From assembly GCA_028874795.1 (NCBI GenBank), contig JAPPHT010000070.1, forward strand, positions 70,484 to 134,483: DNA of 64,000 nucleotides. The letters run 5' to 3'. Position 1 is the first letter of the stretch. The number at the start of each line of letters is the position of its first letter. The notes beneath the pieces were generated by a model, which did no database searches, was not told the origin of the DNA, and saw only the letters and a list, made by a program, of their open reading frames with translations. This document shows positions 2,020 to 54,221 of the stretch, piece after piece. The translations under genes and the position numbers were made by a program. The DNA comes from Chloroflexota bacterium. Its GTDB lineage: Bacteria > Chloroflexota > Dehalococcoidia > Lucifugimonadales > Australimonadaceae.

Positions 2020-3162
2020 CTACTCCCCTACGGCAGCGGCAACAGTCTCGACCTCTTCGAGCAGCGCGTCGAGCATGTCCGCTTCCTCGACGATGCGCGC
2101 CTTCTGCCCCTTGCGGAAGATGATGGCGCGCCCGTTACCCGCCGCGATGCCGACGTCCGCGTCCTTCGCCTCACCGGGGCCGTTCACCTCGCAACCCATC
2201 ACCGCGACCTTCACCGAGGTGTCCATGCCCTTGAGCATCTGGTCCACGGTGTTGGCGAGCTTGCGGATGTCCACGTCGGCGCGCCCGCAGGAAGGACAGG
2301 CAACCATCTGGACGCCCTTCTTGCGGAGGTCCAGGGCCTTGAGTATCTCGTAGCCGACCTCCACCTCCTCGCGGGAGTCGTCGCTCAGCGAAACGCGGAT
2401 CGTGTCGCCGATCCCGTCGTAGAGCAGCGTGCCGAGGCCGATGGCGCTGCGTATGGAGCCGGAGCGAGCGGTGCCGGCCTCGGTGATCCCGAGGTGGAAG
2501 GGGTACGGCACCATCTTCGCGAGCTTGCGGTACGCCTCGACGGTGGTGTCGATGTCGTAAGCCTTGAGCGAGATCTTGATGAGATCGAAGTCGAGGTCCT
2601 CGAGGAGCTGGATCTCCCAGAGCCCGGTCGCGACCATGTGGTCGACGACGGAGGCTTCCTCTCCGTCACCCGACGCCGACGAGCCCTTGACGAGACGGTT
2701 GACGCCGTCGACGTGGCGGTGCTGGCCGCGCGTCACGCCGATTGCGCCGACCGGGGGCAGGCTGCCGAAATTGACGCCGATGCGGATGGGTATCTGCCGG
2801 GCTTTCGCCTCGCGCACGACCGTGCGCACCTTCTCCGCATCGCGGATATTGCCGGGGTTGAGCCGCAGGCAGTCCACGCCCTGGTTGAGGGCTTCCAGCG
2901 CGAGCTGGTAGTGGAAGTGGATGTCCGCGACGATGGGGATGGACACCTGGCGCTTGATGGCGCCCAGGGCCTGCGCGGCCTCCATGTCCGGAACGGCGCA
3001 GCGGATAATCTCGCAGCCGACCTCCTCGAGGCCGTGTATCTGTGCGACTGTGGCCTCGACGTCACGGGTGTCGGTCTTGGTCATGGACTGAACGCTGACG
3101 GGAGCGTCCCCGCCGACCTTCACGTCTCCCACCCACACAGGCTTGGTTACGCGGCGTGCCAT
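2020..3162 (-). CDS. ispG: 4-hydroxy-3-methylbut-2-en-1-yl diphosphate synthase (IspG)
   Basis: A 380-residue enzyme of the MEP isoprenoid pathway. It converts methylerythritol cyclodiphosphate to HMBPP using a [4Fe-4S] cluster. The N-terminal TIM barrel begins with the characteristic VKVGGDAPVSVQSMT. The cluster ligands are C289 and C292 (CPSCGR), C324 (MGCEVNGPGE) and E331. The length matches the short two-domain bacterial form. The start MARRVTK is preferred over an ATG 19 codons earlier because a G-run (GGGGGG) sits just upstream and the extra residues do not resemble the family. It lies downstream of dxr and rseP but is separated from rseP by 346 bp holding a phased repeat array, so it may have its own control. 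Confidence 0.95.
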   Translation of the reverse strand: MARRVTKPVWVGDVKVGGDAPVSVQSMTKTDTRDVEATVAQIHGLEEVGCEIIRCAVPDMEAAQALGAIKRQVSIPIVADIHFHYQLALEALNQGVDCLRLNPGNIRDAEKVRTVVREAKARQIPIRIGVNFGSLPPVGAIGVTRGQHRHVDGVNRLVKGSSASGDGEEASVVDHMVATGLWEIQLLEDLDFDLIKISLKAYDIDTTVEAYRKLAKMVPYPFHLGITEAGTARSGSIRSAIGLGTLLYDGIGDTIRVSLSDDSREEVEVGYEILKALDLRKKGVQMVACPSCGRADVDIRKLANTVDQMLKGMDTSVKVAVMGCEVNGPGEAKDADVGIAAGNGRAIIFRKGQKARIVEEADMLDALLEEVETVAAAVGE

Positions 3163-3508
3163 TTCCGGCCCCCCTTGGGTTGCTGCCAACCATGATACAC
3201 CCGGCCGAAGATGTGACACCCGCCACTTACTCGAACGCCTGCCCGTACGCTACGCTGGTGCTTGGCGGGGTCTGGGCCGCGAAGTCCTTCCGCCCGAAAG
3301 CGACACAATTCGACACCTTTGCGGAGAACGATCGGCATCTCACTCCTGGCAGCCTTCAGTTCAGGAGTGAAGGGCCTGTCGGAAACTGTCGGATAACTGT
3401 CGGAATTATGTCGGACTGCGTCGGATGCCTGTTGAGTTGCTGTCGCCTCATGTCGGGCGCGTTGCAGGCAGCCTTACTCCCTCTCCTGAAGAGAAGGAGT
3501 GCGGGCGC
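3163..3508. other. Spacer between rseP and ispG with two clusters of TGTCG/CGACA heptamers
   Basis: This 346-bp noncoding stretch contains two CGACAC heptamers at 3301 and 3311 and a longer array of TGTCGG heptamers in the opposite orientation at 3377-3457 (separate entry). I see no plausible coding frame. It is upstream of ispG and downstream of rseP on the transcribed strand. Confidence 0.7.
3377..3457. promoter_or_regulatory. Helically phased array of eight TGTCGG-type heptamers
   Basis: TGTCGGA-like heptamers start at 3377, 3387, 3398, 3409, 3419, 3430, 3441 and 3451: four exact, one CGTCGGA, one TGTTGAG, one TGTCGCC and one TGTCGGG. The steps are 10, 11, 11, 10, 11, 11 and 10 bp, one DNA turn each, so all sites face the same side of the helix. 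Direct heptamer repeats with a period of about 11 bp, often preceded by C (CTGTCGG), are the layout of PhoB/OmpR-type response regulator sites such as the Pho box. The array is probably an operator acting on ispG; the regulator is not identified. Confidence 0.55.
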
Positions 3509-4789
3509 TCACGCGAACAGGCGCTGGATGTCGTTCACGGAGATCATGACGATCGCGGCGATGAGCATCACGAACCCCGCGGCATGGACGAAGCGCTCCT
3601 TCTCCGGGGCAAGGCGCCGTCCCCCGCGAGCGATCTCCACCAGCACGAACGCGATGCGCCCCCCGTCCAGCGCGGGGAAGGGGATGAGATTGATGATGGC
3701 GAGGTTGATGGAGAGCAGCGCCGTCCACAGGACCAGCGGGCTGATGCCGGCCTCGGCCACGTCGCCGGTTATCTGCGCGATGCCGATGGGTCCGGCGACC
3801 TGAACCGACGATGCGCCCGCTATCCACCGCGAGATCTCGTTGCGGAAGAGCAGGAGGACCTCGCCGATCTGGACGAAACTCGCGCGGAACGCGGTCAGCG
3901 GCCCCATGGAGCGCGTCTCTTCCGGATAGACGTTGACGGCCAGTCCGTCGAGTGCATCCTCGTCCGGGGGCAACTCCAACGTCACTATGCGGCCCTGCCG
4001 CAGCACCTCCACCTGCAACGGCTCTCCGGGTGAAGCTTCCAGGGCAGCGGTAAGGGCGGTCTGCGGGCTGTCTTCGTTCAGCACACGCCTGCCTCCGACC
4101 GACAGGAGCAGGTCGCCGGGAAACAGGCCGCTCCGCGCAGCCGTCGAACCGGAAGCCACGGACGCTACGGCGAGCCGGGCGTCGGTGAGCAGGATGCCGA
4201 CCGCGCCCTGCCCTTCAGGCGGGTCGACTCGCGCCTCCGGTATGCGCAGCCCGACGAGCCGTCCGCGCCGCTCGACCGTCCATGCGGTGTCGGCGCCCAG
4301 TCTGCGGTTGATGGCGATGAACAGGTCCGACGAGTTGTCGATGCTCCTGCCGTCCGCCTCCCGGACGAGATCGCCGGGCATGACTCCCGCCTGCTCCGCG
4401 GGCGACCCGGGCGCGACGCTCAGCACGGCCACGTCGGTCACGGGCACGGGCTGTGGGGTCATGAAGACGACCGTGAGCAGGATTACGGGAAGCACGGCGT
4501 TCATCGCTGAGCCTGCGCCGAGGATGACCAGCCGTTGCCACGCACTCTTGCCGGCGAAACTCGCTGGCGCTGTGGGGTCCTCCTCGCCGAGCATCCGCAC
4601 GAAGCCTCCGATCGGCAGCAGGTTGAGCGAGTAGGTGGTCCCGCCGCGCGTGAAACCGAATACGCGGGGGGGCATCCCGATACCGAACTCCAGGACGTGC
4701 ACCCTGGCCAGCTTCGCAGCGGCGAAGTGCCCCAGCTCGTGCACGATGACGAGCAGACCGAGAACGGCGAGGAAGAGGAGGATGGTCAT
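3509..4789 (-). CDS. rseP: Site-2 protease RseP (M50 zinc metalloprotease)
   Basis: A 426-residue intramembrane metalloprotease that cleaves transmembrane substrates such as anti-sigma factors and signal-peptide remnants. Helix 1 carries the zinc motif HELGH (residues 18-22). Two PDZ domains follow (about 110-200 and 205-285, seen as PGSPAEQAGVMPGDLV and GSTAARSGLFPGDLL). The third zinc ligand motif NLIPFPALDGGRI lies near residue 370, followed by a last helix. The gene starts 18 bp after the dxr stop, and the dxr-rseP order is common in bacteria. No clear ribosome-binding site precedes the ATG, so translation is probably coupled to dxr. Confidence 0.95.
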   Translation of the reverse strand: MTILLFLAVLGLLVIVHELGHFAAAKLARVHVLEFGIGMPPRVFGFTRGGTTYSLNLLPIGGFVRMLGEEDPTAPASFAGKSAWQRLVILGAGSAMNAVLPVILLTVVFMTPQPVPVTDVAVLSVAPGSPAEQAGVMPGDLVREADGRSIDNSSDLFIAINRRLGADTAWTVERRGRLVGLRIPEARVDPPEGQGAVGILLTDARLAVASVASGSTAARSGLFPGDLLLSVGGRRVLNEDSPQTALTAALEASPGEPLQVEVLRQGRIVTLELPPDEDALDGLAVNVYPEETRSMGPLTAFRASFVQIGEVLLLFRNEISRWIAGASSVQVAGPIGIAQITGDVAEAGISPLVLWTALLSINLAIINLIPFPALDGGRIAFVLVEIARGGRRLAPEKERFVHAAGFVMLIAAIVMISVNDIQRLFA

Positions 4790-26686: not shown

Positions 26687-28075
26687 ATGGCCGACGCGTA
26701 TGACGTCATCATCATCGGAGGCGGGTCTGCCGGCGAGAACGTCGCCGGGCGCACGGCGCCTGCCGGGCTCAGCACCGCCGTAGTGGAGGCAGAACTGGTT
26801 GGGGGCGAGTGCTCGTACTGGGCGTGCATGCCCAGCAAGGCGCTCCTTCGTCCAGGCGAGGCGCTGGCGGCGGCGAGGCGCGTGCCCGCGGCGCGGGACG
26901 CCGTCACCGGCAGCGTGGACGCCGCCCGGGCCCTCCGCGGACGCGACGCGTTCGCCAGCCACTGGAACGACGAAGGCCAGGAGCAGTGGGTCGCCTCCGT
27001 GGGCGCGACGCTCATCCGGGGCTGGGGACGGCTCGACGGCGAGAAGCGCGTCGTCGTCGAGATGGCCGACGGCAGCGGCAGCGTCGAGCTCGAGGCGAAC
27101 AAGGCAGTCGTGCTAGCAACGGGCTCGGTTGGCTTCATCCCGCCCATCGAAGGGCTGGCCGAGGCCGAGCCGTGGACGAGCCGGGAGATCACCTCCGCGA
27201 AGAGCGTGCCGGAGAGCCTTATCGTTATCGGATCGGGCGTCGTCGGGTTGGAGATGGCCCAGGCGTGGAAGTCGCTCGGCACGGCGGAGGTGACCGTACT
27301 GGAGCGCATGGCGCTGGAGGACACGCCGTTCGAGCCGTTCGCTATGCAGGCGGTCGTCGACTCGCTGGAGGCGCAGGGCGTCGTCTTCCGGTTCGGGTGC
27401 GTCGTGGCCTCGGCCGCCCGGACGAGCGATGGCGTGACCGTAACGATGGACAACGGCGAGACGCTGTACGCGCAGGAGCTGCTCGTTGCCGCGGGGCGCA
27501 CCGGCGTCGTACAGGGAGTCGGCCTCGAGACGGTGGGCGTCGACGCGCGGCGCTTCGTGACGGTGAACGACTACCTGCAGGTGGACGGCGTGGACGGCGG
27601 CTGGCTGTACGCGGTGGGCGACGTGAACGGGCGTGCGCTGCTGACGCACCAGGGCAAGTACCAGGCGCGGCAGGCGGGCGACCACATACGGGGGATCGAC
27701 GCCTCCGCTTGGGCGGACAACGGCATGGTGCCCGCCGTAGTGTTCACGGACCCCCAGATAGGGAGCGTGGGGCTGACCGAGCGTGCCGCCCGCGAGCGCG
27801 GCCTGAACGTGCGCGTCATCGAGATGGGCTGGCCGGTGGCCGCCGCGCCGCTCCACGGCGAGCATTTCACTGGCGGGGTGAAGTTCATCGTCGACGAGGA
27901 CCGGCGCGTGCTCGTCGGCGCGACGTTCGCCGGGCCGGAGGTCGGCGAACTGACGCACGCGGCGACCATCGCCATCGTGGGTGAGGTGACACTCGACCGC
28001 CTCTGGCACGCCGTGCCGTCGTTCCCCACCCTCAGCGAGGTCTGGCTGCGCTTCCTGGAAACCTACGGCCTCTGA
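26687..28075 (+). CDS. FAD-dependent pyridine nucleotide-disulfide oxidoreductase
   Basis: A 462-residue member of the dihydrolipoamide dehydrogenase/mercuric reductase superfamily. The FAD-binding motif IIIGGGSAGENVAG is at the N terminus. The redox-active disulfide is in GGECSYWACMPSK (the two Cys separated by four residues). NAD(P) binding is by VIGSGVVGLEMA, and the second FAD motif ends LYAVGDVNG. The C-terminal dimer motif reads HAVPSFPTLSE, not the HPHPTLSE of true lipoamide dehydrogenase, as in several uncharacterised actinobacterial and Chloroflexota homologues. No HMA domain or lipoyl partner is nearby, so the disulfide substrate is unknown. AGGAAAGAGAGGAG lies upstream of the ATG. 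Confidence 0.9.
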   Translation: MADAYDVIIIGGGSAGENVAGRTAPAGLSTAVVEAELVGGECSYWACMPSKALLRPGEALAAARRVPAARDAVTGSVDAARALRGRDAFASHWNDEGQEQWVASVGATLIRGWGRLDGEKRVVVEMADGSGSVELEANKAVVLATGSVGFIPPIEGLAEAEPWTSREITSAKSVPESLIVIGSGVVGLEMAQAWKSLGTAEVTVLERMALEDTPFEPFAMQAVVDSLEAQGVVFRFGCVVASAARTSDGVTVTMDNGETLYAQELLVAAGRTGVVQGVGLETVGVDARRFVTVNDYLQVDGVDGGWLYAVGDVNGRALLTHQGKYQARQAGDHIRGIDASAWADNGMVPAVVFTDPQIGSVGLTERAARERGLNVRVIEMGWPVAAAPLHGEHFTGGVKFIVDEDRRVLVGATFAGPEVGELTHAATIAIVGEVTLDRLWHAVPSFPTLSEVWLRFLETYGL

Positions 28076-28486
28076 GTGGAGGGCAGCCCGATCAAGGATG
28101 CCAACGGGCCTCAGATTCTGGCACTCTTGATCGCCAACTTACGAGTGAAACGTCCTTGCCGTTTGGCATCCTTGAGGTCCTTGATCGGAGCGTTTCCAAG
28201 GCCACGGCCTGCTTCCGGGGCACCGGAGCATCAAGAATCTCAAGAGTGCCAATGTTTTCAAGTTTGTGGGCCGTTCCCATAGACCTCTTCGATACCTGGG
28301 CCATGTACCCATAGATGTCGTCTATGGGTCGTGCAGGGGCAACGGCCATGCAACCAGCGTAGCGGGCGCAGGGTCGACCGCGATATGGGCGGGTGTCATA
28401 CGTTGGGACAGAGCTGCGAGGTTCCTGCCTCCGCAGGAACGACAGGCTCTCTGTTGCCGCGCGGGACGGGCGCGTAAACTGCCCGC
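28076..28486. other. 411-bp noncoding spacer with nested inverted repeats
   Basis: CAAGGATGCCAACGG (28093-28107) pairs with its complement at 28159-28174; CGATCAAGG (28089-28097) with 28179-28187; TGGCACTCTTGA (28119-28130) with 28240-28251. A separate perfect hairpin ACCCATAGA/TCTATGGGT has arms 28307-28315 and 28321-28329 and a 5-nt loop, and a family-A-like hairpin GTTCCTGC/GCAGGAAC lies at 28421-28440. I see no convincing gene. It may encode a structured RNA or be the relic of a small mobile element. Confidence 0.6.
28475..28486 (+). promoter_or_regulatory. -10 box of menB, leaderless arrangement
   Basis: TAAACT (28475-28480) is followed by 6 bp and then the menB ATG, and no ribosome-binding site exists. 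The transcript would start at or within a base or two of the ATG. The -35 is weak. Confidence 0.5.
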
Positions 28487-29287: not shown

Positions 29288-29707
29288 TCAGCCCCAAGCT
29301 GACACAATCGCAGCGGCTGCGGCGATGAGGGCTGCACCCGCGCCGACCATGGCAGCCGCGCTTCCCACCACCCAGCGGATGATGCGGGTCTCCATCTGCA
29401 GCATCCGCTGCTCGAGGTCCACAACCCTGTCCTCGACCCGAACTGTGCGCTGTTCAGCTTGTGCCGTACGGTCTATGCCGCGCTGCTCTGCCTGCGCCGT
29501 GCGGTCCATGTTGCGCTGTTCTGCTTGCGCCGTACGTTCAACGCTGTGCTGTTCGGCCTGCGCGATTCGGTCGACGCTGCGCTGTTCGGCCTGCGCGATT
29601 CGGTCCGAAAGCGCAGCGTGCTGGGCAGCGTTCTCAAGCGCAAACTCGTGGAACCAGCGCGGAACGCTGGCATCGTCGGCGGGGTATTCGATCGGCGTCG
29701 TGGTCAT
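29288..29707 (-). CDS. Membrane-anchored coiled-coil protein with 11-residue repeats
   Basis: A 139-residue protein. After a short N-terminal region (WFHEFALENAAQH), residues 35-89 are five consecutive 11-residue repeats of the type DRIAQAEQRSV, encoded by 33-bp DNA repeats (29441-29605). A further coiled coil (VEDRVVDLEQRMLQMETRIIRW) leads into one C-terminal transmembrane helix. Eleven-residue (hendecad) periodicity predicts a nearly straight, slightly right-handed coiled coil. The layout resembles small bacterial DUF1640/CCDC90-like proteins, but the match is only general. It lies convergent to menB with a 3-bp gap. The function is unknown. Confidence 0.75.
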   Translation of the reverse strand: MTTTPIEYPADDASVPRWFHEFALENAAQHAALSDRIAQAEQRSVDRIAQAEQHSVERTAQAEQRNMDRTAQAEQRGIDRTAQAEQRTVRVEDRVVDLEQRMLQMETRIIRWVVGSAAAMVGAGAALIAAAAAIVSAWG

Positions 29708-53782: not shown

Positions 53783-54221
53783 CCCCCCGCTCCGTCGGGC
53801 CATTTCCCGCTCTCGGCAGATGCCTGGTCCCTTCCCCATCTCGGCAGGTGTCTGGTCCCTTCTCCCTCTCGGCAGGTGCCTGGTCCCTTCCCCTCTCGGC
53901 AGGCGCCTGGTCCCTTCCCCCTCGATGGGGGAAGGTTAGGATGGGGGTGAACGGAGTGCGGGAGTGGGGCCGGACGGGTGCCTTACTCCCCTCTCCCCAG
54001 GGGAGAGGGGCTGGGGGTGAGGGTTGATTGTCATGCTCAGCGGAGCGCAGCGGAGTCCCGCGCTTCAGCGCGCAACATCCTCTCAGGATGCCTGGTCCCC
54101 TCTCCTGAGGGAGAGGGTTAGAGCCTGCCCCGCACTTGGTGCGGGGTGAGGGCCCTGCGTGCGGCGGGGTGGAGTTCGACGGTTATGGGTTACCCAGGGC
54201 TTCTTGCAGGTGAACGCTGAC
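53783..54221. other. 439-bp repeat-only spacer before the sortase gene
   Basis: It contains four 27-28-bp tandem repeats (53811-53920), a family D palindrome (53909-53951), a family C copy (53986-54027), a family B-like copy (54027-54086) and a second family C copy (54098-54151). I see no gene in it. Confidence 0.75.
53811..53920 (+). repeat. Four tandem copies of a 28-bp unit
   Basis: TCTCGGCAGGTGCCTGGTCC followed by CTTCCCC is repeated with starts at 53811, 53839, 53867 and 53894 and a few substitutions. The copies are contiguous without unique spacers, so this is a tandem array that ends by running into the family D palindrome. Confidence 0.85.

Follow-up and report, generated by a model that had tools for sequence, protein, structure and literature searches.

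A phased repeat array between ispG and rseP in a Chloroflexota genome is one copy of a dispersed promoter-and-array module linked to TerS-like genes

Here, we show that the phased repeat array lying between ispG and rseP in the window (the whole 64,000-nucleotide stretch of Chloroflexota DNA analysed) is one of many dispersed copies of an intergenic module. It is not a regulator site of ispG, as had originally been predicted, because the orthologous site is empty in the congener G005 and the same module recurs as a dispersed family. Within this family, phasing at about 10.5 bp is independent of unit sequence and extends across unit classes, the module stands before genes for TerS-like proteins, and copies are present or absent at the same place in different congeners. 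In one genome only, G036, TerS, TerL and portal genes are linked behind an array. We think it probable that the window copy is an orphan TerS-binding array, akin to a pac site or operator, around which a TerS ring would wrap DNA.

The array and its spacer

The array lies in a 344-bp spacer between the start of one minus-strand gene (2020–3164), which we take from its sequence to be ispG, and the stop of another (3509–4789), presumably encoding an rseP-type protease, whose 3′ end faces the array; both genes come from the open-reading-frame list. Re-reading of the sequence places eight phased direct units at 3377–3456 on the plus strand, starting at 3377, 3387, 3398, 3409, 3419, 3430, 3441 and 3451 (window coordinates), with steps of 10, 11, 11, 10, 11, 11 and 10 bp. 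The original prediction, eight TGTCGG heptamers at alternating 10- and 11-bp steps preceded by two inverted copies, was right about all eight starts and about the inverted copies (CGACA on the minus strand, 3301–3315, starting 10 bp apart at 3301 and 3311). It was wrong about a uniform heptamer: TGTCGG is exact in only five of the eight units (3377, 3387, 3398, 3409 and 3451), and the fifth to seventh are degenerate (CGTCGG at 3419, TGTTGA at 3430, TGTCGC at 3441).

The 5′ part of the element is a promoter-like module on the plus strand (3213–3257; 39.2 bits and E = 4.9e-11 with sequence model R1, in whose training set this copy is one of 15 rows), and it points away from ispG. Its predicted boxes, picked by eye, are a −35-like TTACTC (3227–3232) and a −10-like TACGCT (3251–3256) with an 18-bp spacer. 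The promoter is followed by the inverted units, a plus-strand hairpin, TCACTCCTG / CAGGAGTGA (inverted repeat I1, 3340–3370), and the phased units; the hairpin arm AGGAG corresponds, in a comparison by eye, to the ribosome-binding site preceding terS in gene-bearing copies. A coding origin for the array was considered and rejected: a plus-strand reading frame (3156–3803) is open through it, but the 10/11 steps shift the frame, the steps differ between orthologues, and many other copies contain stops.

Three exact units at the array spacing gave two overlapping matches in the window and none in each of 100 dinucleotide-preserving shuffles. Across the whole genome, the same pattern gave 8 matches at 4 places, and at least three TGTCG-core units at 10 or 11 bp gave 10 matches at 5 places, with 0 for the reversed-pattern control in both searches. 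The module is present once more in the window (28059–28398, minus strand, left limit approximate; R1 32.9 bits at 28355–28398), there with another downstream architecture, AAGAGTGCC/GGCACTC-type units and different direct and inverted units. Elsewhere, the window contains tandem repeats at 29446–29596 (33/66-bp units, 4.6 copies) and 53804–53923 (28-bp units, 4.3 copies).

TGTCG-type arrays were found in 6 of 39 relatives searched, a count in which the window genome is included and one AT-rich genome contributes just a single weak match; a stricter array pattern, applied to 247 genomes of the order, matched 6 of them. The TGTCG class is therefore patchy. The claim that such an array is rare holds outside the lineage and fails inside it, where the array belongs to a large family. 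Comparison of the orthologous ispG upstream regions, suggested along with the original prediction, gave a mixed picture. In G004, the ispG-rseP spacer contains an orthologue of the element (85% identity across 1.7 kb) whose array keeps 7 of the 8 unit starts in place while the unit letters differ; the GTC core columns, whose choice was guided by the window units, are the same at 19 of 21 positions, versus 35 of 59 for the remainder. As far as can be judged from these sequences, the kept spacing argues for constraint in the recent past. In G005, ispG and rseP are adjacent with a spacer of 63 bp, as opposed to 344 bp in the window, and the element is absent, the very finding that had been named as refuting a role at ispG. 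The stretch missing between the two G005 matches gives the approximate extent of the inserted element (3206–3509, plus strand). The G003 spacer holds a differently arranged element of another subtype. Two further congeners are uninformative, as the G002 match stops inside ispG near a contig end and ispG and rseP are not adjacent in G001.

A dispersed family of modules

Alignment of the five places with TGTCG units, found in a search of the genome for other arrays, revealed a shared promoter-like stretch some 100 bp ahead of the array. R1, a 46-position model of this promoter part built from 15 gene-less copies, matched (E ≤ 0.05) at least 94 times in the window genome (G000), and at least 110, 70, 76, 47 and 21 times in G003, G004, G005, G002 and G001, respectively; these counts are lower bounds, with 150 candidates scored per genome and part of the sites checked for an array. 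To our knowledge, which here extends to a limited literature search, no paper has described this promoter-plus-array family.

A TGTCG pair occurs in 16 of the 78 module copies read out. The other 62 carry other units, which we named by eye (GAGCAG, GAGCGG, GAGCC, TGTCTCA, TGGCACA and others). In these 62 copies, identical 5-mers recur at lag 10 far more often than in shuffles (213 vs 23.9, z 28.6), and lags 21 (z 9.5) and 31 (z 11.2, with 31–32 raised) are also elevated, as are lags 8, 9 and 45 (z 5.2, 13.0 and 14.4), with lags 13–17 at background; the z values are inflated, since some of the copies are orthologous to each other. Helical phasing does not depend on any one unit sequence.

The genes next to one further module locus are the same in four congeners. 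All-versus-all BLASTP around 43 loci, mostly gene-less copies, returned mainly orthologous neighbourhoods and no TerS cluster, and on this basis a shared neighbour gene acting as a mobilising enzyme was rejected. One group, the type C copies (L256, L257, L262, L270, L271, L274, L276, L278 and L282), shares conserved GGAAGCAGGCC..GGCC and TTTACTCGTA together with four variable, mutually complementary segments, and could represent either a site with two palindromes or a structured RNA. The type C copies have few, differently arranged units, and we could link no TerS to them, which counts against TerS as the reader of the arrays. At L290 and L316, the promoter module stands directly before a reading frame, at the expected start point, and the frame has a CxxxxC-type zinc motif (ALRCGIPGC..CPSH).

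The family is also seen in G036, a related member of the Dehalococcoidia (2.518-Mb chromosome, the record of locus L056), which holds 99 copies of a 39-base promoter part. Strand polarity along this chromosome was considered and rejected, the strands being mixed (47 plus, 52 minus). The first 800 kb contain 33 class-1 copies, each with a sharp left edge at the −35 box and then an array of TGTCGCA, TGTCGGA, TGTCGTA, TGTCACA or TGTCAGA units; a second class has TGTTCCA-type units. Class-1 elements have 8–10 units in 27 of the 33 cases (mode 9), and when steps of 9–12 were allowed, 170 were 11, 82 were 10 and none had any other value. The array pattern is absent from G070, a congener of G036 (about 74% identity, broken-up assembly). 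A tRNA locus that carries an element in G036 is without it in G070, a distant genome in which the edges are unreadable.

In three classes (G036 class 1, class 2 and type C), an ATG lies about 7 bases past the −10 box and short frames, read by eye, follow, an arrangement that would suit leaderless messages. Array-bearing elements at two loci of G058 (L215 and L219) have promoters that hold CGAAC-N4-GTTCG, which we take to resemble a LexA box, and the G036 promoters hold a degenerate form of it. SOS control of elements with this LexA-like box is possible.

Association with TerS-like and other packaging genes

In two copies of the module, the array continues into a gene that encodes a small helix-turn-helix (HTH) protein. 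This protein has 30 homologues in six congeners (6, 7, 5, 8, 3 and 1, the window genome accounting for 6), and R1 matches upstream on the same strand at 29 of the 30 loci, L331 being the exception. The model was trained on gene-less copies only, not on these loci, and 3 of the 29 matches are weak (E 9e-5 to 2.7e-3). Location at terS, as expected of a pac site, is therefore seen for the module; the window copy itself is an orphan. All 30 homologues match PHROG 2538 (terminase small subunit). Because matches to Pfam HTH_Tnp_1_2 fall below the curated cut-off, we base the name TerS on PHROGs, gene order and satellites. No TerS came up when PDB sequences were searched with a profile, which gave only helical-repeat matches of low significance (best E 0.034).

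Across the 33 TerS loci (these 30 plus three in G036), the stretch from promoter to gene contains phased repeats, with counts of 204 vs 12 at lag 10, 103 vs 11.7 at lag 22 and 65 vs 10.4 at lag 43, and with lags 21–22, 32–33 and 42–44 raised; some single loci, such as L327, L329 and L352, show no clear period. By eye, the units overlap the terS start at several loci. Repeated 6-mers are shared by 28 of 48 locus pairs whose HTH domains are at least 70% identical, by 22 of 239 at 50–70% and by 22 of 241 below 50%. TerS similarity correlates with shared repeated 6-mers (Mantel r 0.368, 0/2000 permutations, 33 loci), a result confounded by common descent, which alone could give part of it.

All three HTH genes of G036 follow an array whose class also occurs scattered through the genome: two stand directly after 9-unit TGTCGCA/TGTCACA arrays, and the third after a TGTTCCA-class element. 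At one of these loci the order is array, TerS, ORF2, TerL (PHROG 2, 6.1e-33) and portal (PF04860, 8.1e-74). Linkage to TerL and portal was seen at this one G036 locus, and most of the congener TerS loci looked at have ordinary neighbour genes. Each of the six congeners has one portal-family gene; in five of them the portals are 85–88% identical and share the same conserved neighbour, and identity to the G036 portal is 46%. The lone portal gene at L393 (12683–13963) and its orthologues sit among the same neighbours in at least five congeners, and it is probably a domesticated phage gene. TerL-family matches number 5, 8, 5, 9, 5 and 6 in G000–G005, several being fragments or interrupted by stops. 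TerL-like fragments with stops also occur on the window's own contig, outside the window (G000:C84:19687-21154).

Among 50,697 phage records, the closest relatives of two TerS queries all belong to Streptococcus satellites (8 of 8 records for one query, 6 of 6 for the other). No phased array is present at two such satellite loci, whose TerS homologues are distant. One viral-contig relative is an LTPRQ-type protein followed by a gene that reads, by eye, as TerL; again by eye, that contig has no phased array. Both of these results count against TerS as the reader of the arrays. Finally, inspection by eye found a TGTCG array at none of the six TerS homologues of the window genome (97% complete). 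It appears that the cognate TerS of the window's unit class is missing from this genome or has been lost, and the window copy may be read by a protein of outside origin, may have been read by one since lost, or may go unrecognised today.

What the array may be

The broader idea in the original prediction, a helically phased protein-binding array, fits all of our findings, and we infer the binding itself. If the reader is TerS, as we think probable, the window array would be an orphan copy of a terS-type 5′ region, consisting of a promoter and a pac- or operator-like array from which the gene is absent. One HTH would read each unit, and about nine HTHs, spaced by a helical turn, would form a ring that wraps 85–105 bp with all units on one face of the DNA. 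Where the gene is present, the complex would lie over the promoter and start of terS, and there it could repress terS and mark the DNA for packaging. The gene-less copies are possibly packaging signals, operators or non-autonomous mobile copies.

This proposal draws on PMC4737164, which describes pac-binding TerS rings of 8–11 subunits with adjacent HTHs about one B-DNA turn apart, an SPP1 pac site with direct repeats across the promoters and start of terS and a length (about 100 bp) that suits wrapping, and a lowering of transcription by TerS-pac of its own operon. By analogy, an array of 8–10 units at 10–11 bp beside terS is what a TerS ring would be expected to read best. SPP1/SF6-type pac is like the present element in the position and extent of its repeats, in the HTH spacing, and in the packaging and repression roles proposed there (PMC4737164). 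It differs in that our elements have 8–10 regularly phased, sequence-specific units plus inverted units, with many unit classes per genome and most copies lacking terS. PMC4737164 also describes the SF6 HTH as nearly sequence-independent, with data that favour shape over sequence; sequence-specific units within an element go beyond, and partly against, those data. Satellites offer another parallel. PICIs and satellites may carry their own TerS or only the helper's pac/cos site, and the TerS of satellite phages redirects packaging (PMC6092414). The satellite matches of our two TerS queries belong to this setting. PICIs differ in their integrase, replication and capsid-interference genes and in having a helper, none of which has been linked to the copies here, which measure about 300 bp.

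It is possible, if doubtful, that the copies are non-autonomous mobile repeats (MITE- or BOX-like) and the array the binding site of a transposition protein. This would suit the 99 near-identical promoter parts of G036 and the absence of the array pattern from its congener G070, the sharp left edge, the empty site in G005 and the other subtype in the same G003 spacer; presence and absence between relatives, as expected of a MITE, is what the ispG-rseP spacer shows. BOX elements and MITEs are likewise modular and intergenic, with about 100 copies and a variable number of a middle unit, whereas here the middle unit is one helical turn, varies in sequence between copies and is linked to TerS genes. 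Moreover, no terminal inverted repeats or target duplications were seen by eye in 33 copies, no transposase was tied to the copies, and the associated proteins are of TerS and TerL types.

We consider it unlikely that TerS-like HTH proteins have been domesticated as transcription factors, with the dispersed copies forming their regulon, each array serving as operator for the promoter of its copy, and that promoter driving a nearby gene or short RNA. Every copy has a promoter-like module, as the search was built to require; 35 of 55 G036 elements lie between divergently read neighbours, according to crude gene calls; many of the TerS genes have no other phage genes around them; and the repression by TerS-pac of its own operon, as reported in PMC4737164, would fit. 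Against this, the window promoter reads antisense into rseP, divergent spacers hold no orientation information, the ispG-rseP copy is absent in G005, and the unit classes differ between copies, and therefore one protein could not serve all of them.

A structured RNA, with the repeats serving as RNA-protein or RNA-RNA sites, is very improbable. The element has its own promoter, its direct and inverted units could pair, and there is the hairpin at 3340–3370, but folding is little better than in shuffles (z −1.23 for 3258–3500, plus strand; z −1.57 for 3160–3510, minus strand) and a 10.5-bp period is a property of B-DNA. Rfam gave 0 matches at E ≤ 1 in window positions 2900–3800, and across five loci a single match, CcsR1 (L144 441–511), below its gathering score and about 1 kb from the array. 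Hardly credible is a response-regulator array of the PhoB/OmpR family controlling ispG, as first proposed, or rseP: direct repeats of about 11 bp beginning CTGTC do resemble Pho boxes, but the same module precedes many unrelated unit sequences and lies at 29 of 30 TerS loci, the linked proteins are TerS-type, and in place of the conservation at ispG expected of such a box, the element is absent in G005 and of a different subtype in G003.

An extension of the TerS-binding interpretation is quite unlikely as a whole. Here, some 100 or more TerS-recognised packaging signals of many specificities across the chromosome, together with several TerS and TerL and one portal, would make up a domesticated dispersed packaging system, GTA- or satellite-like, that marks many places on the host chromosome and in which units and TerS helices co-evolve. 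Gene transfer agents are similar in that there is one conserved portal per genome (six of six congeners) and several TerL and TerS genes; they differ in their typical clustering, which is not seen here, where the system is known from portal, TerL and TerS genes alone.

As to how an HTH ring finds pac DNA, the published SF6 data favour shape over sequence (PMC4737164). The many apparently matched pairs of TerS and phased array, with 8–10 units each, would allow unit sequence, number and phase to be compared. If the orphan copies are recognised, they may map out where packaging or silencing takes place across the whole genome in this uncultured lineage of Chloroflexota.
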